From Polynucleobacter sp. MG-Unter2-18 (GTDB lineage: Bacteria > Pseudomonadota > Gammaproteobacteria > Burkholderiales > Burkholderiaceae), in contig NZ_CP061302.1 in NCBI RefSeq assembly GCF_018687675.1, positions 880,192 to 944,191 of the forward strand: DNA of 64,000 nt, in the 5' to 3' direction. Below the pieces are notes generated by a model. The model made no database searches. It was not told where the DNA came from and saw only the letters and a list, made by a program, of their open reading frames with translations. This document shows, one piece after another, positions 1 through 9,641 of the stretch (positions are counted from its first letter, which is position 1; each line of letters begins with the position of its first letter). A program made the position numbers and the translations under genes.

Positions 1-689
1 GAGCTCAGAAGGAGGGATGGAACTTTAGTGAGCCCAAGGATGTCTAGGTATCTGGCAACTTGTTTGCTATGCCACCTTGTCGAGCCTGAGGCTGTTTTGG
101 CTTTTGTTGACTCAAGTACCCTTGCTATGGCGCTATAGGACATGCCTTGCTGTCTAAGAGGCTTGATTAGCGGCTCTAAGGCCTTCGCTCTAGCTACGGA
201 GTTATCTTTCTTAACTTTGTTTCTTTTGAGCGTCTTATCTCTCAGGCCACCCAGTTTTACACCCCGGGCTTTTGCTTCTTTTAGGGCTGCAATAGTCCTT
301 TGGGATATGAAGTCTCGCTCCTGCTCGGCAAGTGCTGCATATAGGTGAAGTTGAAACTTATCCGCCTGGGGAAGGCAGGCAACCTTAAATTGCAATTTTT
401 TGTCCTCCATTAGGCTTGCAATAAATGCAACCTTCCTTGATAGCCTGTCGAGTTTTGCAACCAGCAGAATTGCCTTTTCCTTTTTCGCGAGTTCGATGGC
501 CTTCTCAAGCTCCTCCCTGTTGTCATCAGACCCCGAAAGGATGTCTACGAACTCAGCAATTACCTCATATGGCTGACCAGAGTAATGCGTCAAGTATGTA
601 TATAAATCTCGATTTTGGGCTGCTAATCCAAGGCCTGATTTGCCTTGTTCTGCTGTAGAAACACGTCTATAGGTTATGTACTTGTGCAC
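1..689 (-). CDS. Serine recombinase (resolvase/invertase family), 3' end cut by window edge
   Basis: This is a site-specific DNA recombinase of the resolvase family, which cuts DNA through a catalytic serine. The frame opens at GTG (687-689) with a weak AGGTG ahead of it and stays open to base 1, giving at least 229 residues, so the stop must lie just outside the window. The N-terminus YRRVSTAEQGKSGLGL holds the catalytic Ser at about residue 11. KLDRLSR near residue 78 and EQERDFISQRT near residue 120 are conserved resolvase motifs. The C-terminal 60 residues, with QGMSYSAIARVLE, look like the recombinase helix-turn-helix. It sits in the integrative element beside the NERD gene. It could act within the element (resolution or inversion) or be a passenger. 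Confidence 0.85.
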   Translation of the reverse strand, partial: MHKYITYRRVSTAEQGKSGLGLAAQNRDLYTYLTHYSGQPYEVIAEFVDILSGSDDNREELEKAIELAKKEKAILLVAKLDRLSRKVAFIASLMEDKKLQFKVACLPQADKFQLHLYAALAEQERDFISQRTIAALKEAKARGVKLGGLRDKTLKRNKVKKDNSVARAKALEPLIKPLRQQGMSYSAIARVLESTKAKTASGSTRWHSKQVARYLDILGLTKVPSLLLS

Positions 690-735
690 CCTAATCACCT
701 AGTTAAATGTAATAACTAGATCTTATCCATTTCTG

Positions 736-901: not shown

Positions 902-1528
902 CTACTGGAATCTAGAGGCTAGGTGTTCCTTATGCTCTACATCGGTCATTCGTGTCAGAGCTAGTCTCTTGCATTCCAGTCGCCCCACACAGAATTGCAT
1001 ACGGTTCTCGGTCAGAAGTTCTTCATTCAAACCTTTGAGATACAAAAGCAGTGAGCCTAGGGTGTGAACTCCAAGGGGGTGATCGGTCTTGAAGGTGGCA
1101 TCACCAGTAAAAACCACCATTGGGAAGATATGCTCAGGTGGAATGAAGTCCAGGAGTTCTTGAACTGCTTTTAGGTGTTTGAAGTTTTGGCGAAGTGGAT
1201 TTTGAAATCGGAACTTCTTTTTGTAGATCACCTGAGTCCAGTCCTTCGAGTTGGCATCTCCAAAAATCCAGCCACTGTAATGCTTGGTCTCAATTACAAA
1301 GACACCGAACCTGGACACCAAGATATGGTCAACCTGAGTGGTGCCTTTATCAAGTTTGAGGGTGATGTTGTTGAGTAGGTGCCAGGAGTCGCTCGGAAGG
1401 TTGGTGATGATGGCATCACGAACTAGGGCTTCACCTTTGTTCTGAAAACGGTATCTGCCATAGGATTGAAGCAAATAACCGCCCCCAAGCACGGCTGGGA
1501 TGAGGAGGAGCCACAGATACAGGTTCAT
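902..1528 (-). CDS. Membrane-anchored NERD-domain protein
   Basis: The 208-residue protein has one N-terminal membrane segment (residues 3-22) followed by a NERD (nuclease-related) domain. Residues fitting the PD-(D/E)XK-like core are visible: E33 in NKGEALV, D67 in TQVDHIL, and E80 and K82 in VIETKHYSG. NERD domains are thought to be nucleases, but no substrate is known for this group. The domain would face the cytoplasm or the membrane surface, depending on anchor orientation. It is the last gene of a minus-strand group of three with the two small membrane proteins at 1545-2117, 16 bp after the previous stop. A weak AGAAG precedes the ATG. A role in DNA handling or defence of the element is possible but unproven. 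Confidence 0.8.
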   Translation of the reverse strand: MNLYLWLLLIPAVLGGGYLLQSYGRYRFQNKGEALVRDAIITNLPSDSWHLLNNITLKLDKGTTQVDHILVSRFGVFVIETKHYSGWIFGDANSKDWTQVIYKKKFRFQNPLRQNFKHLKAVQELLDFIPPEHIFPMVVFTGDATFKTDHPLGVHTLGSLLLYLKGLNEELLTENRMQFCVGRLECKRLALTRMTDVEHKEHLASRFQ

Positions 1529-2206: not shown

Positions 2207-2221
2207 ACCAATTTAATTGGT
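2207..2221. promoter_or_regulatory. Inverted repeat in the divergent region upstream of the Sel1 gene
   Basis: ACCAAT (2207-2212), TTA, ATTGGT (2216-2221) form a perfect inverted repeat with a 3-bp centre, 28 bp upstream of the ATG at 2250. A looser pair, CCCCAATATTT (2125-2135) and AAATACTTGGGG (2174-2185), brackets the middle of the same divergent region. Symmetry and position suggest an operator. No regulator is identified. Confidence 0.35.
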
Positions 2222-2249
2222 ATTTGATGGATCTAACCGAGGTGCAGTA

Positions 2250-3281
2250 ATGGAGTTTCTGATAATCATTGCCTTAGCTGGTATCGCTTTTTATTATTTT
2301 AAAAAAGCGAAAAAAACACCGCCAATTCAAAAAACCACCAAAGACTTCAAAATTGGTAGTAACTATGCATTTGGTAAAGGTAGCCCAGGCATTGATAAAT
2401 TATCAGCAGAGGTATTTACGGAGCAGGCTGGCAAAGGTGACATTGAAGCCCATGCAGCGTTGGGGAATATGTATGGGCTTGGCATTCACTTCCAAAAGGA
2501 TGTTGAGCAATCAGTCAAGCATTACCAAATTGCCTCCGATGCTGGTCATGCAACTGCAACATACGAATTGTTTGGTTGCTACCTTGAAGGTGCTGGTGTG
2601 CCAAAAGATGAGCAAAAAGCCATTGAGCTATTAAAGAAAGCTGCCGAAATGGGGGAGCCATCAGCACAGGCAGTTATGGGTATATTTATTAGCGGAGGTG
2701 TGCATGGCTTTACGCAAGATCAAACAGAGGCTTTGCATTGGTTTATGAAGGCTGCCCAAGGAGGTTCTGCACACGGACAACTGAGGCTGGCTGATGCCTA
2801 CATTGCTGGAGAGCTTATTCAGCCAAATTATGAAAAAGCATTTGAGTATTACAAAAAAGCGGCAGACCAGGATATGTTGGCAGCCTGTGAGCGATTGGGT
2901 ATTTTTTATCAAACAGATGCTTACAACGAAAAAAATGCGGCTGAGGCATTTAAGTGGAATATGAAGGGTGCGACTCTTGGCTCACCCAAGTGTGCCTATT
3001 TTGCGGGGGCAGCTCTTTTATTTGGTGATGGTGTCGAGCTAAATTACGAACACGCAAGAACTGTTCTAGAAGTGGCAGCAGAATCTGATTACGCAGATGC
3101 TCAATACCTTTATGGAATGATGCTTGATCGTGCTTTAGGTGGTGATAGAGATCAGCTGAAAGCGATCGAATGGCTAGGCAAGTCGGCTGACCAGGGAAAT
3201 GAAAAAGCTTTGGCAGAACTCCATCAGATGCGTGAAGATATTGATAGATCACTGGATGGGATCACTGGGATTTCGAGGTAA
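2250..3281 (+). CDS. Sel1-repeat (TPR-like) protein with N-terminal membrane anchor
   Basis: The 343-residue protein begins with a membrane anchor (about residues 2-15, FLIIIALAGIAFYYF), followed by a basic stretch and then roughly seven Sel1-type repeats from about residue 45 to 330. Repeat signatures such as AHAALGNMYGLGIHF, ATYELFGCYLEGAGV and ADAQYLYGMMLD show the A-x-x-x-L-G-x-x-Y spacing. Sel1 repeats are protein-interaction scaffolds found in signalling, secretion and some host-contact systems. ATG 2250 is preferred over a TTG at 2217 because GAGGTG (2239-2244) lies 5 bp ahead of it. It opens the plus-strand cargo operon that runs to 6989. Its partner is unknown. Confidence 0.85.
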   Translation: MEFLIIIALAGIAFYYFKKAKKTPPIQKTTKDFKIGSNYAFGKGSPGIDKLSAEVFTEQAGKGDIEAHAALGNMYGLGIHFQKDVEQSVKHYQIASDAGHATATYELFGCYLEGAGVPKDEQKAIELLKKAAEMGEPSAQAVMGIFISGGVHGFTQDQTEALHWFMKAAQGGSAHGQLRLADAYIAGELIQPNYEKAFEYYKKAADQDMLAACERLGIFYQTDAYNEKNAAEAFKWNMKGATLGSPKCAYFAGAALLFGDGVELNYEHARTVLEVAAESDYADAQYLYGMMLDRALGGDRDQLKAIEWLGKSADQGNEKALAELHQMREDIDRSLDGITGISR

Positions 3282-3317
3282 GGTTCTAAGTCTTAGACTG
3301 AGTAATTAAGGATTAAT

Positions 3318-3815
3318 ATGGATTTTCACATTAGCAAAACTGAGATTCACGCAAGCTTTCATTGCACTGATGGGTCTGATTACAGAACTCGATCAATGGT
3401 CACTCTGTATGGTGCAATGATTCAATTTGATAATCCGAATGAGCAGTTCAGGAACGAATTCCCGCAGAATATTCGAAATTCAAAAAATCAAAAAATCCTT
3501 GCGGTATGTGCAGGCAAGAGTGAACAGGAATTTCTTGAAAAGGGTTCAAGTGTTGAAAAAACTAATATCAAGCTTGATTTGTCGGTCGTAAATAATGAGC
3601 TCGAGATTAGCGGAACGCTCTATTTGCTGAAAGATGATTTCGATCGTCTAGTTCGCATTGTCGAGGGATTGCCTCGTCCAAATACATACTTATATGGGAC
3701 TATCGTGACCATCGGCGGGAAAGTGTCAAGCCCAAGCAAGGCATACATTGAGGGCTACTGTGAAGGGCTAACAACATTGAGTTATTTGCATGGTGAGGAG
3801 AAAAGTAATGGCTAA
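3318..3815 (+). CDS. Hypothetical protein of the cargo operon
   Basis: The 165-residue protein has no signal peptide or membrane segment and is probably cytoplasmic. The sequence is rich in alternating hydrophobic residues suggestive of a beta fold (VTLYGAMIQF, LEISGTLYLL, TYLYGTIVTIGG). I do not recognise a family. AAGGA at 3309-3313 precedes the ATG. It lies 36 bp after the Sel1 gene and its 3' end overlaps the start of a 14-codon micro-ORF that leads into the next gene, so it is in the same transcription unit. Confidence 0.65.
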   Translation: MDFHISKTEIHASFHCTDGSDYRTRSMVTLYGAMIQFDNPNEQFRNEFPQNIRNSKNQKILAVCAGKSEQEFLEKGSSVEKTNIKLDLSVVNNELEISGTLYLLKDDFDRLVRIVEGLPRPNTYLYGTIVTIGGKVSSPSKAYIEGYCEGLTTLSYLHGEEKSNG

Positions 3816-3852
3816 GTATGAGGTCAGGATTCACCATAAAAGAAGGGGATGA
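3808..3852 (+). CDS. 14-residue micro-ORF bridging two cargo genes
   Basis: ATG 3808 lies inside the last codons of the 165-residue gene. The frame reads MAKYEVRIHHKRRG and stops with TGA (3850-3852), which overlaps the ATG (3849-3851) of the next gene as ATGA. A GAGGAG-like ribosome site lies 8 bp ahead of it. Ribosomes finishing the upstream gene could translate this bridge and re-initiate on the next gene. The overlaps are seen directly; that it is translated, or that the basic peptide has a role, is inference. Confidence 0.35.
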   Translation: MAKYEVRIHHKRRG

Positions 3853-4358
3853 AATTGAGGGTTAAAGAATTGCTAAATGGTTTAAATGGTTGGCAAAGAT
3901 TATTTGCAGGCTTTCTTATTTTTATTTATTTGCCGATTACCTTTGTAATTGTTTCTGATGCAGGAAGATTTCAGATTCCGAATGGTCAAGAGTTGACCAA
4001 GATCATGCCCGATCAAGTGTTGAATAGTCTTCATACAAAGGAATCAATATTGCAGCAAATGTCGGATGGCATCGACTGGGATCTTGCAACTGAAAAGGAC
4101 TACAAGTTATATCGTGTTGGCGATCCTGATAGGAGCTGGGAATATGCCTTGTATGTCTCAAATAAAATTGAACCAGCTAAAGCTAAGGCCATGGCAGACG
4201 ACTTTAGTAGGGCAATGAAATCCTATGCATTCAGATCGATTCTTATTGAACGATTGGCGACCTTCATTTACTTTCTAGTCGGTGCGATCTGTATCTACGC
4301 TTTCGGTTTGACTTTGGCTTGGATTTATAGAGGGTTCAAAAGAGGTGCAAATGGATAA
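3849..4358 (+). CDS. Two-pass membrane protein of unknown function
   Basis: The 169-residue protein has membrane segments at about residues 17-36 (LFAGFLIFIYLPITFVIV) and 137-158 (FIYFLVGAICIYAFGLTLAW), with a polar loop of about 100 residues between them, which is likely periplasmic. AGAAGGGG (3841-3848) is the ribosome site. The gene ends by overlapping the next small membrane gene by 8 bp, so translation is probably coupled. No family recognised. With the two following genes it forms a run of three membrane proteins, possibly one complex. Confidence 0.65.
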   Translation: MKLRVKELLNGLNGWQRLFAGFLIFIYLPITFVIVSDAGRFQIPNGQELTKIMPDQVLNSLHTKESILQQMSDGIDWDLATEKDYKLYRVGDPDRSWEYALYVSNKIEPAKAKAMADDFSRAMKSYAFRSILIERLATFIYFLVGAICIYAFGLTLAWIYRGFKRGANG

Positions 4359-4518
4359 CGAAGTTGGCGGGTTAGTCTTTTTCCTGTTTGGAATATTTTG
4401 TGCCTATTGGGCACAGACGACAAACCGGAGTGCATGGCTTTGGTTTTTCCTGGGGCTTTTCTTTGCTCCGATAGCTGGACTGGTTTTGCTTTATAAGAAC
4501 TCTAAGGCGAGTAAATAA
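4351..4518 (+). CDS. Small two-helix membrane protein
   Basis: The 55-residue protein has two hydrophobic helices, at about residues 7-20 (GLVFFLFGIFCAYW) and 28-48 (WLWFFLGLFFAPIAGLVLLY), ending in a basic tail. AGAGGTG just ahead of the ATG is a good ribosome site. It overlaps the preceding gene by 8 bp and the following gene by 1 bp (TAATG). The tight overlaps and ribosome site support a real gene. The helix-turn-helix membrane hairpin with FFAPIAGL resembles many unnamed small bacterial membrane proteins. Function unknown. Confidence 0.65.
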   Translation: MDNEVGGLVFFLFGIFCAYWAQTTNRSAWLWFFLGLFFAPIAGLVLLYKNSKASK

Positions 4519-5117
4519 TGTTGATGATGATTATTGCCGTGGTAATCGGTGTGCTGATTGCCCTGGTGATTTATAACAATCCTGAAATCATCATTGACCT
4601 GGCAAAGCTTGCGTTTTATGGTGCTATTGGCATAGGGGCAATATTTATATTGGTGATGATTTATTTCTCAATTTTTGAGAGTGGATCAAAAACTACCAGC
4701 AAGATGATTCCAGTAAATGTTAAAAGTGGGCAAAGTCTTGCAGCTGAGTCCGTAAATCTAGCTCTGTCGCAATACGAGCCAATTAATAAGCAGTGTACCC
4801 AAGAGCTGACGAATAAGCATTTGCACACTGCATTTGAATTTAATTTTAAAAAATATCTGATTGTCGAATCGAGCTGCACTCCCCAGGGCGGTAACCAGAA
4901 TTTTGACTACATCAATTTAATTGAGATAGATTCATCGGGAAAGTTCATTGAGCGAGATGCAATTAATTTTAGAGGTATTCTAAACAGCGTCAATATTGAA
5001 AATGGATTTATCAATATTCGGTATGCTGGTTACGCTGCAAACGACCCAAAATGTTGTCCATCACTAGCAACCATTGAAAAGTATGAGATTTTTGACAATC
5101 GTTTAGTTAAAAAATGA
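4518..5117 (+). CDS. Membrane-anchored protein with cysteine-containing outer domain
   Basis: The 199-residue protein has two N-terminal membrane helices (about residues 2-19 and 32-53), followed by a polar domain of about 145 residues. That domain has four cysteines (NKQCTQ, ESSCTP and DPKCCPS), which could form disulfides if the domain is periplasmic. I do not recognise a family. The start overlaps the stop of the 55-residue gene by 1 bp and the stop overlaps the next ATG as ATGA. This supports co-translation with its neighbours. Confidence 0.65.
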   Translation: MLMMIIAVVIGVLIALVIYNNPEIIIDLAKLAFYGAIGIGAIFILVMIYFSIFESGSKTTSKMIPVNVKSGQSLAAESVNLALSQYEPINKQCTQELTNKHLHTAFEFNFKKYLIVESSCTPQGGNQNFDYINLIEIDSSGKFIERDAINFRGILNSVNIENGFINIRYAGYAANDPKCCPSLATIEKYEIFDNRLVKK

Positions 5118-5293
5118 TCTACCCCAAAAAGCCACCTAAACCCAAAGCCACCATCAAAGATCTGCTCAATAGCGATCAACTGGTGAAGGGTAAGGTGCTG
5201 CTTGAAAAGAAGCTGGCAGAACAGAAGGTTATGGCAGAGGCAATGGAATTTGAAATGCGGAACCGAAAGTCAAAAGCAGGGCGAACTAAATGA
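5114..5293 (+). CDS. Small charged protein (59 residues) just upstream of HNH-HIT
   Basis: The 59-residue product is lysine-rich, with a proline-lysine N-terminus (PKKPPKPKATIK) and a probable helical or coiled-coil middle (VLLEKKLAEQKVMAEAMEFE). It overlaps the gene before it (ATGA at 5114-5117) and the HNH-HIT gene after it (ATGA at 5290-5293), so translation of all three is probably coupled. No family recognised. The basic composition would suit nucleic-acid binding or an adaptor for the HNH-HIT protein, which is inference only. Confidence 0.55.
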   Translation: MIYPKKPPKPKATIKDLLNSDQLVKGKVLLEKKLAEQKVMAEAMEFEMRNRKSKAGRTK

Positions 5294-6294
5294 CCTTTTC
5301 TGAGTTAAAAAAATTTATTACCCAGGATATGTCTATGAGCCATATCTATCAGCCCGTGATGCTGATAGAGCTATTGAAAGGCGGTGGTAAGGCTTCAGTT
5401 CGAGAAATTGCCCAGGCAATCCTCAATCATGATCCAACTCAGGTCGACTACTACTCTGAGATTGTTAAAAACATGGTCGGCAAAGTTCTGACCAAGAGCA
5501 GGGGCATTACAGAAAAAGAGAAGGATACATACTTACTTCGTGGATCTGATCAATTAAGCGATGCTGAGAAGGCAGAGCTCGTTGCCCTGTGTGAGTCCAA
5601 AATTCTTGATTACGAGATTAAGCGCAATGGTGAGCACTGGGATCACCGTAAGCGTGGCAGGAACCCAATCTTAGGATCGATCCGCTACGAGGTGCTAAAG
5701 CGATCTAAGTTTCGTTGTGATCTATGTGGTATCTCAGCTGACAAACGTAGCCTAGAAGTTGACCATATCCATCCTAAGAGTTTGGGTGGCAAGGATGACA
5801 TCAGTAATTATCAGTCACTTTGCTATCTATGTAATGCACAGAAAAATAATCGTGATGATTCTGACTTCAGAAATCATGAGCACTTTTACGATCACCGTTC
5901 TGAAGGCTGCTTGTTCTGCGATTTACAGGCAACTAACCGCACCAGGATCGTTGATGAGAACGAATTAGCCTATGTAATCAGGGACGGCTTTGCGGTCACT
6001 CCGCATCACTCACTTTTTATTCCTAAGAGACACGCAGCTGACTACTTTGAATTGACTCAGCCTGAAGTCAATGCAATTAACCAGCTGATACAGATGCAAA
6101 AAGTTGCTCTGGAGAAGCTGGATCCAACCATTGAGGCATTTAATATTGGAATGAATTGTGGTGAAGCGGCAGGGCAGACGGTATTTCATTGCCACGTGCA
6201 CCTCATTCCAAGGCGAAAGGCTGATGTAGATAATCCCAGGGGTGGAGTTCGCCATGTCATCCCAGGTAAAGGTCATTACCAGGATAAAAAATAA
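5290..6294 (+). CDS. HNH endonuclease - HIT hydrolase fusion protein
   Basis: The 334-residue protein joins three parts. Residues 1-120 are an unassigned N-terminal region. Residues 130-190 are an HNH nuclease module: zinc pairs C143/C146 and C178/C181 bracket VDHIHPKSLGG with D158-H159. Residues 205-325 are a HIT domain with a CLFC zinc pair (C207, C210) and the triad HCHVHLI (H300, H302, H304). HNH modules cut nucleic acids; HIT proteins hydrolyse or transfer nucleotides, for example from dinucleotide or AMP-conjugated substrates. All key motif residues of both domains are present, so both may be active. The gene overlaps the 59-residue gene by 4 bp. A defence or DNA/RNA-end-processing role is inferred, not shown. 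Confidence 0.85.
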   Translation: MTFSELKKFITQDMSMSHIYQPVMLIELLKGGGKASVREIAQAILNHDPTQVDYYSEIVKNMVGKVLTKSRGITEKEKDTYLLRGSDQLSDAEKAELVALCESKILDYEIKRNGEHWDHRKRGRNPILGSIRYEVLKRSKFRCDLCGISADKRSLEVDHIHPKSLGGKDDISNYQSLCYLCNAQKNNRDDSDFRNHEHFYDHRSEGCLFCDLQATNRTRIVDENELAYVIRDGFAVTPHHSLFIPKRHAADYFELTQPEVNAINQLIQMQKVALEKLDPTIEAFNIGMNCGEAAGQTVFHCHVHLIPRRKADVDNPRGGVRHVIPGKGHYQDKK

Positions 6295-6312
6295 ACGGTT
6301 AGAGTTGACGAT

Positions 6313-6810
6313 ATGAAAAAACTAATACTTGTGGCATTAATTTTTCTAAGTGCCTGCTCTGTTCGGTACACGCAGCGTATCCCTGGCATCCAGCCTGGCT
6401 ATGTCGATACTCAGCTGGGTCAAGATACATATCAGGTCAAGATCGGAGAGGCATGGCAAAAGGACTGGGCTGACTTGGAGAAGTTTGCGATGTACCGTGC
6501 TTCCGAAATCACAGAGTCACGAGGTAAACGCTACTTTATTGTGCTCAATTCAAGCACCCAAGTATCGACTTACTACATTACAACACCGTCAACGACCAAC
6601 ACTAATGCCACTGCTACAGTTTCTGGATCTACTGCATATATCAATTCAACTTCCACCACGACTCCGGGAGTTACCGCACCCATTAGTGGTGGTTGGTACA
6701 CATTGGACTTCAGAATCCTCAGTGATGCTGATCTAGCAAAGACCCCAAGGGTGGTTGATGCTCAGCAGGTAAAGCGTGATTACCAAATGTTTATTGATGG
6801 TAGGCGGTAA
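6313..6810 (+). CDS. Lipoprotein, CC0125/CC1285-like
   Basis: The 165-residue protein has a short lipoprotein signal with lipobox LSAC (Cys at residue 15). The mature part contains GYVDTQLGQDTYQVKIG and an RASEITESRGKRYFIVL segment, resembling the CC0125/CC1285 lipoprotein family, whose function is unknown. A Ser/Thr-rich stretch (about residues 95-120) follows. It starts 18 bp after the HNH-HIT stop and overlaps the next small gene by 1 bp. A lipoprotein in this operon adds to the group of envelope proteins around the HNH-HIT gene. Confidence 0.75.
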   Translation: MKKLILVALIFLSACSVRYTQRIPGIQPGYVDTQLGQDTYQVKIGEAWQKDWADLEKFAMYRASEITESRGKRYFIVLNSSTQVSTYYITTPSTTNTNATATVSGSTAYINSTSTTTPGVTAPISGGWYTLDFRILSDADLAKTPRVVDAQQVKRDYQMFIDGRR

Positions 6811-6989
6811 TGAGTGATATTGAGTTTTTTGCCAAGCTAAATCCAAAGCCTTTTAAGAGCCTTGCAATCATTGAGAAAGACCGGGTCGAGGAGCTTAAGC
6901 GGGAAAAGGAGTTGGCTCTCCTGAAGGCTGCTGGCAAGATCCCGGCCGAGCCTGAACCACCAGAAACACGGGAACCGTTCTACGACTAA
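6810..6989 (+). CDS. Small charged protein (59 residues), end of cargo operon
   Basis: The 59-residue protein has a charged helical centre (EKDRVEELKREKELALLKAA) and a proline/glutamate-rich tail ending FYD. It starts in the stop of the lipoprotein gene (TAATG). No family recognised. It matches the length of the small charged protein on the other side of the HNH-HIT gene, but I see no sequence similarity between them. It closes the overlapping gene run that starts at 2250. Confidence 0.5.
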   Translation: MSDIEFFAKLNPKPFKSLAIIEKDRVEELKREKELALLKAAGKIPAEPEPPETREPFYD

Positions 6990-7071: not shown

Positions 7072-7413
7072 ATGTCTGAAATACCATTTGTTTTAGCTCA
7101 GCAAGAAAAGGACTGTATGTCCTTCAATACTGAAACACCCCCAAATCCAATTGTGGATTCATACAAGGAATCAGCCTTTTTCCCTGAAATTCATGCCTAC
7201 GTGACTACAAATGCGAGGGTCAGGGAGGATGGCGACTTCTGGATTGAGTTTAATACCATGGCTGGAGAGCGTCTATCGGGAATGGAAATGTATATAAACC
7301 GATTTACCAATGTCGAGGAGGGGCTCCAATTCCTTAAGAAGCTTCAGAGGGTATCTGAAAACCTCATTGGTTTTATTGAAAAGAATCACTTGAAGCAAGC
7401 ACCTAAGGATTGA
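7072..7413 (+). CDS. Hypothetical cytoplasmic protein
   Basis: The 113-residue protein has no signal or membrane segment. It is acidic to neutral, with a central segment DFWIEFNTMAGERLSGMEMY that suggests strands followed by helix. AAGGAC at 7061-7066 is the ribosome site. A possible promoter lies just upstream. It overlaps the alternative TTG start of the next gene, and the two form a pair. No family recognised. Confidence 0.6.
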   Translation: MSEIPFVLAQQEKDCMSFNTETPPNPIVDSYKESAFFPEIHAYVTTNARVREDGDFWIEFNTMAGERLSGMEMYINRFTNVEEGLQFLKKLQRVSENLIGFIEKNHLKQAPKD

Positions 7414-8316: not shown

Positions 8317-9510
8317 TTACTTACTACCTACGACTTTAAGAAACTTCTTGGCTACCTTTGCGTTCCAAGGCCTGAGCGTATCCATCTCAGCCTTAGAGTA
8401 GGTGTCAAAGGTGATCTTTCCAGTGGTGTGCCTCATCAATCGAACAATGTTCAAAGGCTCACACCCAATTGCCTCAAGCTCCTGAGCGTATCTCTTACGA
8501 AGTCCGTGGGTTGTCTTTGAGCTATATCCAAGGTCTTTAGATAGTCCGTTGAAGTTCCTCTGAATCCTCCTAAAGAGCCCCTTGTTCTCGAATGGAATTC
8601 GTTTCAGCAAGGTGTTTACCTCAGGAATCACTGGAAGATAGGCCGAGGAGGCCACGTTCTTAGTGCCTTCTACATAGATAGACCCAGTGTCTTTAGGTTT
8701 GATCTTGAAGACTTCGCTTATACGAAGGCCAAGGAGGAGGGCTACAGTTACACAATCTCTCGTATCGGAGAATAAGTCGGGGTGATTAAAGAGGGCTTTT
8801 AGCTCCTCATCGGTGTGGGCTATAGCTCCATCTCCACCTTTGCCCTTAGCCCCAGCACCCTCAGCGTAGTTCCTCTCAACAATTCCAGACCTGATGGCTG
8901 ACTTGAAAAGTAGAGATATTTGGGAGAGTTTGTTGTTTGCTGTTTTCGCTGAGAGCTTCTCCTCGGTGGTCATATGATCTACCCAAGAGGCTAAGTGTTT
9001 GGTTTTAACAACATCAATAAAGACTAGTCCACTGTGCAAGGAGAACTCTCTGACGGCTTCTTTTAGTCTTCTTTCTGCGTTCTTTTGGTCGAACTTTTCG
9101 GGATACTTTTTCTCTGCAATCCATCGCTTAATTTGTTGCTCAGCGAGTGTGTGAAGTGAGGTTCTTCCTTCGAGTTCACCCATCAATCTTTGAGAGGTGA
9201 TCTTGTCTAACTTCTCTGAGAGGTTCTTTGCAATCTCCCAAGATCTTTCGTCTGTCTCATCATCTTTAGTGTGGTGTTTGATATCAAGAATTAAGTTCGT
9301 TACGTAGTCTCGTGAATTGAACTTCTCAAACTCTTTGAAGATCTCGCTTACTACTTCGTGAAGTCTTCTCTTAGCTACCTGTAGATCCTTTGTACGTAGT
9401 GAGCGAACAATGATTTCTTTACCAACATAGGGTGCGAGTTTCGTAGGTACACGAACACGGGCGTAAAATGTCCCATCAGGTCTAGGTTGGAAGAGATAGT
9501 TAGGTTTCAT
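8317..9510 (-). CDS. int: Tyrosine recombinase / phage-type integrase
   Basis: The 397-residue integrase catalyses integration and excision at the tRNA-Pro att site 86 bp upstream. The N-terminal half holds arm-binding and SAM-like regions. The C-terminal catalytic domain shows the full set: Arg in LLLGLRISEVF, His and Arg in HGLRKRYAQ, His in LMRHTTGKI and the nucleophile Tyr in TFDTYSK. ATG 9510 (MKPNYLFQPRP) is preferred; GTG 9522 would add four residues. No good ribosome site precedes either. Two copies of TGTTAACACA lie over the start region and could be operators or integrase arm sites. The gene is followed by two small genes in the same direction. Confidence 0.93.
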   Translation of the reverse strand: MKPNYLFQPRPDGTFYARVRVPTKLAPYVGKEIIVRSLRTKDLQVAKRRLHEVVSEIFKEFEKFNSRDYVTNLILDIKHHTKDDETDERSWEIAKNLSEKLDKITSQRLMGELEGRTSLHTLAEQQIKRWIAEKKYPEKFDQKNAERRLKEAVREFSLHSGLVFIDVVKTKHLASWVDHMTTEEKLSAKTANNKLSQISLLFKSAIRSGIVERNYAEGAGAKGKGGDGAIAHTDEELKALFNHPDLFSDTRDCVTVALLLGLRISEVFKIKPKDTGSIYVEGTKNVASSAYLPVIPEVNTLLKRIPFENKGLFRRIQRNFNGLSKDLGYSSKTTHGLRKRYAQELEAIGCEPLNIVRLMRHTTGKITFDTYSKAEMDTLRPWNAKVAKKFLKVVGSK

Positions 9511-9513
9511 GAC

Positions 9514-9544
9514 TGTTAACACAATTTAGATAAATGTTAACACA
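9514..9544. promoter_or_regulatory. Paired TGTTAACACA repeats over the integrase promoter region
   Basis: TGTTAACACA occurs at 9514-9523 and again at 9535-9544. The copies are 21 bp apart, about two helical turns, so both lie on the same face of DNA. Each has a palindromic core TGTTAACA. They lie 4 and 25 bp upstream of the integrase ATG. They are likely binding sites for a dimeric repressor or arm-type integrase sites. Confidence 0.5.
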
Positions 9545-9595: not shown

Positions 9596-9619
9596 GTTCA
9601 AATCCTCTCGCCCCGACCA
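9596..9619 (+). other. Attachment site: 3' fragment of tRNA-Pro
   Basis: The 24 bases hold a tRNA T-loop (TTCAAAT), T-stem 3' strand (CCTCT), acceptor 3' strand (CGCCCCG), discriminator A and CCA. A C1-G72 pair is implied, since the missing 5' strand should read CGGGGCG; together with A73 this is diagnostic for tRNA-Pro. No D-arm or anticodon arm precedes it, so it is only a 3' fragment. It is the chromosomal att copy at the element's end. Confidence 0.8.
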
Positions 9620-9641
9620 TTCAATTTCCCATCTACTTCCC

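Follow-up and report, generated by a model that had tools for sequence, protein, structure and literature searches.

What is the row of genes on the forward strand near the start of a Polynucleobacter chromosomal stretch, and do they work together? The window (G000:C1:880192-944191, where G and L numbers are genome and locus labels) is the whole stretch of 64,000 nucleotides that was analysed, from Polynucleobacter sp. MG-Unter2-18. A preliminary description saw in this row a translationally coupled complex, laid out like a defence system, of a Sel1 scaffold, membrane proteins, a lipoprotein and an enzyme with HNH and HIT domains. Here we describe evidence that the subject of interest is the HNH-HIT protein itself, encoded at 5290..6294. 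We predict, at roughly even chances, that it is a mobile nuclease of the restriction type whose HIT partner processes nucleotides.

The HNH-HIT protein has 334 residues and consists of a region that is winged-helix-like in the structure model (residues 1-112), a zinc HNH domain (about 128-196) and a HIT domain (205-310). The assignment of nuclease and nucleotide-hydrolase domains to this one operon gene was correct, as HNH_5 and HIT both score over their Pfam cut-offs. The nuclease part matches HNH_5 at 50.5 bits and HNH at 48.5 bits. The HIT part scores 63 bits against a cut-off of 21.5, carries the HxHxH motif and has a HIT fold in the model. The catalytic motifs are intact: in alignments of 13 and 14 homologues, residues C143, C146, D158, H159, N173, C178, C181 and N182 of the HNH domain and N285, Q296, H300, H302 and H304 of the HIT domain are invariant. 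A fold search matched the HIT part of the model (residues 202-320) to Hint, Fhit and HIT-family structures, for example B. anthracis 3imi and B. subtilis 1y23, and Foldseek against viral models gave HIT or HNH matches only, among the named matches. Residues 1-112 had no database match.

The protein is rare and patchy in distribution. It was found in at least 8 of 186 genomes of the genus, in 4 others in a 398-genome sample of the phylum, and on 14 viral contigs; no full-length copy, defined as one place covering at least 80% of the query, was found in 72,556 plasmid or 50,697 phage records. A profile of the N-terminal part matched in 4 of 321 genomes, in three cases frames of fusion length (334, 335 and 332 residues) and in the fourth 24 residues within a 70-residue frame. 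No paper on HNH-HIT or HIT-HNH was found by those names in a search that covered little subscription literature, and none in the literature searched joined an HNH and a HIT domain with anti-phage defense or an operon. HNH-HIT is an uncatalogued three-part protein with an uncatalogued N-terminal domain, and its family is now split by annotation into 'HNH' and 'HIT'. Variants were also seen. On a viral contig (L143), 8001-8591 matches residues 131-312 at 36% identity, covering HIT and part of HNH without the N-terminal domain. Two near-identical prophages of one genome (G587; L122, L123) carry HNH-HIT, and in the second of them its N-terminal part is interrupted.

The two catalytic domains also occur as separate, adjacent genes. 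A HIT gene with an adjacent HNH or HNH-like gene was found at 13 loci, with overlaps or gaps of -37 to +4 bp as measured on the longest open reading frames (ORFs). HIT comes first at L017, L018, L020, L021, L022, L023, L024, L075, L077, L102 and L106, and the nuclease-like gene comes first on Bacteroidota plasmids of Hymenobacter (L184) and Persicobacter (L185). The L184 pair adjoins an annotated restriction endonuclease, a nucleoside triphosphate pyrophosphohydrolase and a DEAD helicase. Pfam HNH families score over cut-off in 7 of the 8 partners scanned (those outside L020, L022, L023, L075 and L185), with L184 below it (19.4 versus 22); the partners at L020, L022 and L075 belong to the family of L075/L077, with 41-52% identity. 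For six partners (L017, L021, L023, L024, L102 and L106), a joint N-terminal profile matches solved sulfur-binding domains (SBDs), with scores of 4.7e-28 for 8h0l and 3.1e-10 for ScoMcrA 5zmo. The invariant P-H-K of these six aligns with the ScoMcrA stretch that we read as H116/R117, and an invariant proline stands at the position read as P165, the roles of these residues being those given in the portion of PMC6224610 consulted. Among five of the six scored with NF045808 (cut-off 180), L024 reaches 275 bits and four reach 85-136, below cut-off. At L193 (G044), a HIT and SBD-HNH pair is followed on the same strand, after about 0.5 kb and a single 78-residue ORF, by dndB and dndC, both over cut-off. 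Profile comparisons of the N-terminus of the HIT-partner HNH proteins of about 350 residues with the SBD and with the fusion N-terminus found nothing.

Our best evidence that fusion and gene pair serve one function is their exchange at one synteny block. The fused gene at L039 and the separate HIT and HNH genes at L194 both precede the same Schlafen helicase (74% over 624 residues), and the two loci share a MazG-like gene on the opposite strand (68%; labelled by reading, with no NCBIfam match). This helicase likewise follows the fused gene at L041. In a quick version of a HIT tree, in which the deepest split is weak, the 10 pair HITs included and a viral lone HIT (L152) form one clade, with a Shimodaira-Hasegawa-like approximate likelihood ratio test (SH-aLRT) value of 95, apart from the fused HITs; the fused or alone label needs 8 changes on this tree, and well supported branches require at least 3 of these. 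In addition, the fused HIT of G178 (L068) and a lone HIT of G045 (L042) are almost identical and lie near the same dnaX/recR-type chromosomal region, suggesting that HIT parts were recently exchanged or that the fusion was recently lost or gained.

The neighbours of the fused copies were examined by a Pfam scan of 20 hand-picked proteins. At 11 of the 28 fused loci listed, a neighbour was confirmed as a nuclease, methylase, TIR, Cas9 or helicase; two of the 28 (L135 and L136) are nearly identical in HNH-HIT. The confirmed neighbours are a Schlafen group 3 helicase (L039), HNH (L040, L041), HNH_2 (L058, L121), AAA_12 with zinc-ribbon and weak PLD-like parts (L118), a ResIII/DEAD helicase and AAA_23 (L124), GIY-YIG (L127), C5-methylases and Vsr (L134), Cas9 (L135), a C5-methylase and TIR (L136), a resolvase (L126), AAA_25 (L066) and VWA (L068); GIY-YIG-looking ORFs in L124 and L130 had no Pfam match. 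In G627 (L190, L124), a distance of about 6.5 kb separates the fused gene from dndB, dndC, dndD and dndE, all over cut-off, and from a DndA-like gene at 473 bits (cut-off 480); a helicase, a DndD-like ATPase and an ORF that by eye is DUF262-like stand in between.

Two further observations concern these neighbourhoods. The viral contigs L135 and L136, with 98% identical HNH-HIT proteins, apparently represent one phage hot spot with different neighbours, namely Cas9 with a repeat-like array in L135 and instead a C5-methylase and a TIR protein in L136. NERD proteins are found near HIT or HNH genes at three loci (window 902-1528; L195 6038-7081, where the NERD gene overlaps the HIT gene by one base; and L039 9255-10970), although this proximity may be chance because NERD is common.

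Taken with the recurrent architecture and the mobile contexts, these findings lead us to infer that HNH-HIT is most likely a restriction-type nuclease that works as a single protein on DNA that is foreign or modified. This DNA would be recognised by the winged-helix-like N-terminal domain and nicked or cut by the zinc HNH domain, while the HIT domain would process a nucleotide, or an adduct of one, linked to that reaction. The separate HIT protein of the HIT and HNH pairs may play the same part as the fused HIT domain. DNA cleavage, its target, the HIT substrate and the role in defence are all predicted features.

Several points weigh against this reading. Six further plasmids carrying the SBD-HNH partner type or the partner type of about 350 residues were inspected (3 of 89 records matching the former and 3 of 16 matching the latter, with incomplete gene tables), and in all 6 no HIT gene is annotated within about 4 kb of the nuclease, suggesting that HIT is optional for these nucleases. 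Of nine plasmid HIT loci, drawn from 58 plasmid records matching HNH-HIT, 4 have HIT next to an HNH or HNH-like gene and 5 have no such gene annotated there. Our search started from HIT, which favours the discovery of HIT pairs, and lone HIT relatives (60-68% identity) are found in ordinary-looking loci of the genus and order. Some fused copies have no recognisable defence neighbours in the stretches read, for example L117, L120, L128 and L173, and an HNH gene close to a phage terminase is a common arrangement that need not have to do with defence. PADLOC suggests a contrast between fused and lone-HIT loci, with 80 families in 111 ORFs against 8 in 145 within 1.5 kb, a weak result in which families rather than proteins are counted and redundant methylase profiles have at most 2 members each. 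All 111 ORFs at fused loci were scanned and 145 of 156 in this control, which covers the loci other than L152 and L154, yielded no HIT gene by motif at L153, L155 and L156, and itself contains HIT and HNH pairs (5 ORFs match the PADLOC HNH family). The host genome has no match for dndC, the one phosphorothioate marker looked for. Finally, the N-terminal domain was tried as an SBD for the likeness of its HIYQPVML to the SBD motif PHKPLLLL, and hhalign gave a probability of 1.2%.

Alternatively, HNH-HIT may serve the mobile element or phage itself in packaging, maintenance, homing-like spread or rival exclusion, rather than the host, a possibility that we take seriously and consider doubtful. 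By ORF reading, integrases are present at L121 and L172, serine recombinases at L127, L129-L131, L175 and L176, and prophage terminase and ParB-like genes at L117 and L122/L132/L137. Copies directly adjoin such integrases or recombinases at L172, L121, L126 (the resolvase confirmed by Pfam), L127, L130 and L176, and lie near the terminase and ParB-like genes, which speaks for this alternative. The methylase/Vsr, Cas9, TIR and dnd neighbours point instead to a defence cargo hot spot, and nucleases for homing or packaging would not, to our knowledge, be expected to carry a HIT domain.

The restriction reading could also take a more specific form, which we rate as unlikely: HIT and HNH would constitute an unnamed two-enzyme restriction module, fused or split, in which HNH attacks phosphorothioated DNA and HIT desulfurates or hydrolyses the released nucleotide phosphorothioates. 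This form was suggested by the SBD pairs, the two dnd neighbourhoods and the desulfuration activity of HINT1, which, according to the portion of PMC8775712 consulted, desulfurates dGMPS and AMPS in vitro and releases H2S. Its low rating reflects a fused protein without a detectable SBD and dnd genes seen near just one fused copy.

We consider it quite improbable that HNH-HIT is a DNA-repair or nucleotide-sanitising enzyme, in which an aprataxin-like HIT domain would remove adenylates while HNH trims ends. Repair HIT enzymes are known, and the HIT fold and intact triad are compatible with such a role. The patchy presence and mobile contexts are, however, unlike those of housekeeping repair, and the Hint, Fhit and HIT-family structures matched by the HIT domain include none named aprataxin among the matches listed.

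The question of whether the other genes of the row belong to the same system can be answered from their spacing and distribution. All of the genes described earlier are real and lie on the + strand, as judged from the ORF list and the sequence:

2217..3281, + strand: Sel1-repeat protein with an N-terminal hydrophobic segment; TTG 2217 or ATG 2250 start; Pfam Sel1 2.3e-38
3318..3815, + strand: protein without assigned function; among 186 genus genomes, matched in its own only
3849..4358, + strand: membrane protein; ORF, membrane character from sequence
4345..4518, + strand: small membrane protein; ATG 4351; ORF, sequence reading
4518..5117, + strand: membrane-anchored protein; among 186 genus genomes, matched in its own only
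5114..5293, + strand: small charged protein; 46% relative in L072
5290..6294, + strand: HNH-HIT protein, 334 residues; Pfam HNH_5 2e-13, HIT 4.4e-17
6313..6810, + strand: CC0125/CC1285 family lipoprotein; NCBIfam 60.2 bits, cut-off 40
6810..6989, + strand: small charged protein; 45% relative in L069

The Sel1 and lipoprotein identities hold by these scores. Beyond these two and HNH-HIT, the remaining operon proteins had no Pfam match over cut-off, and the membrane character of three of them comes from their sequence; the model of 4518-5117 has two N-terminal helices at low confidence (mean predicted local distance difference test score, pLDDT, 65). The nearly continuous overlaps described from 3808 onward are real in part. 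Read directly, the sequence has overlaps of 4 bp at 5114 and 5290, of 1 bp at 4518 and 6810, and of 8 or 14 bp at 4351/4345, depending on the start, but the link at 3808 is merely a 14-codon ORF between 3815 and 3849. The Sel1 gene does not overlap its neighbour, and the lipoprotein gene begins 18 bp past the HNH-HIT gene. Start-stop overlaps of such size are ordinary operon spacing and give no evidence for a fixed-ratio complex.

Genus-wide protein searches covered 3318-3815, 3849-4358 and 4518-5117, leaving aside the Sel1 protein and small ORFs. The first and the last of these each match in 1 of 186 genomes, the host's own, and 3849-4358 matches in 4, namely the host, one clear case (34% identity) and two weak ones. 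The lipoprotein has relatives of 77-80% in L069 and L070 and the small membrane protein has relatives of 78% in L071 and L072, in each case with no HNH-HIT within those stretches. The relative in L071 and L072 is accompanied by a 124-residue exported protein near integrase-like ORFs. At seven other Polynucleobacter loci (L039, L040, L041, L058/L067, L066, L068 and L073), the other operon genes are absent around HNH-HIT in the stretches read (tblastn, E<=0.01); L040 contains a 36% relative of the cargo protein 7072-7413, about 4 kb from HNH-HIT. Conservation of the same gene set in other genomes was sought and not found, and homologues of the operon genes did not occur together as a set, the outcome that the preliminary description had itself named as refuting its proposal. 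That the entire row makes up a single envelope/nuclease system, with several proteins in fixed stoichiometry, as its overlaps and common strand might suggest, is very improbable and largely refuted already, with two proteins confined to this genome among 186, other members single or paired elsewhere, and no operon neighbour found near the HNH-HIT gene of seven relatives. The translationally coupled complex proposed earlier is therefore unsupported, and no sign of an envelope sensor or of a nucleotide signal was seen. The suggested defence-like layout does not extend to the operon as a whole; the HNH-HIT gene alone recurs with mobile elements and partly with restriction or defence genes.

The origin of the row is explained by its surroundings, an integrase-bearing element of 13.0 kb in tRNA-Pro(GGG) that is flanked by 26-bp att repeats and includes the following features:

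1..692, - strand: serine recombinase, by sequence reading; extends beyond the window start into L047
902..1528, - strand: NERD nuclease-related protein, cargo on the opposite strand; Pfam scan
7072..7413, + strand: cargo protein without assigned function; 36% relative in L040
7855..8154, - strand: small exported protein adjoining the integrase; 70% identical in the G109 element
8317..9522, - strand: tyrosine integrase with a DUF6538 N-terminus; 90% identical in G109, same site
9596..9621, + strand: right att repeat, 26 bp, the 3' end of tRNA-Pro

The left att copy, with an intact tRNA-Pro(GGG), is at G000:C1:876781, 13,006 bp to the left of the right copy. The site is empty in 3 of 4 relatives examined, where tRNA-Pro runs directly into a thioesterase gene; in the fourth, other sequence separates the two. 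The locus thus has the integrase, direct att repeats, intact tRNA and empty sites of a tRNA-inserted integrative element. A second element, in G109 (L074, G109:C1:905000-922500), occupies the same tRNA-Pro site with the same 26-bp repeat and a 90% identical integrase, and the other genes common to both (blastp E<=1e-3) are the small gene adjacent to the integrase (70%) and one 45% small protein. The G109 cargo differs, with metal-efflux-type genes by eye, suggesting an element that swaps its cargo. The integrase, att repeats, empty sites and different cargo in G109 identify the operon as cargo of the element, and we conclude that it is a patchwork of separately acquired, strain-specific cargo genes.

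Comparison with known systems places the HNH-HIT protein beside several families. Like the SBD-HNH enzymes (ScoMcrA/SprMcrA, NF045808), it joins an HNH nuclease to an N-terminal domain, in its case a candidate DNA-recognition domain, and SBD-HNH relatives are the direct HIT partners at the six loci named above. Unlike these phosphorothioate-dependent type IV enzymes, it has no detectable SBD and has its own HIT domain. It scores 17.3 bits with NF045808 against the cut-off of 180, and its N-terminal profile returned no SBD from the PDB up to E 10, with four rows at E 0.19-0.71. The main text of an SBD-HNH screen (PMC7461809) does not contain HIT or 'histidine triad'. The HNH domain is of the same sequence type as that of IscB and Cas9, matching NF040563 over residues 131-205 at 51.4 bits; with a cut-off of 175, a match to the HNH part alone and no RuvC domain found, the protein was not assigned to IscB. 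Septu was also rejected, as the lone PtuA match is the Sel1 protein (25.8 bits, best stretch residues 95-145), which Pfam identifies as Sel1 repeats and not as an ATPase.

Unlike the HIT family hydrolases (Hint/Fhit, 3imi, 1y23), the HIT domain forms one protein with a nuclease and with an N-terminal domain that is uncharacterised. ThsC of Thoeris type II is likewise a HIT protein tied to a defence system, and the window protein matches it in PADLOC at 31.6 bits; unlike ThsC, the window HIT is fused to HNH, and no ThsA or ThsB match was found among the 10 window proteins scanned. In the portion of PMC8565338 consulted, the PADLOC authors report a HIT gene in 167 Thoeris systems and hypothesise that it is an off-switch, so that such a role for HIT hydrolases has been proposed in one defence system. 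If our prediction is true, the recurrent HIT-HNH partnership, in which fusion and gene pair are interchangeable and which is linked in part to phosphorothioate recognition, would name an uncatalogued domain and protein family. It would also assign HIT enzymes a definite function in restriction that is simple to assay, in which a nucleotide is processed as DNA is cut.

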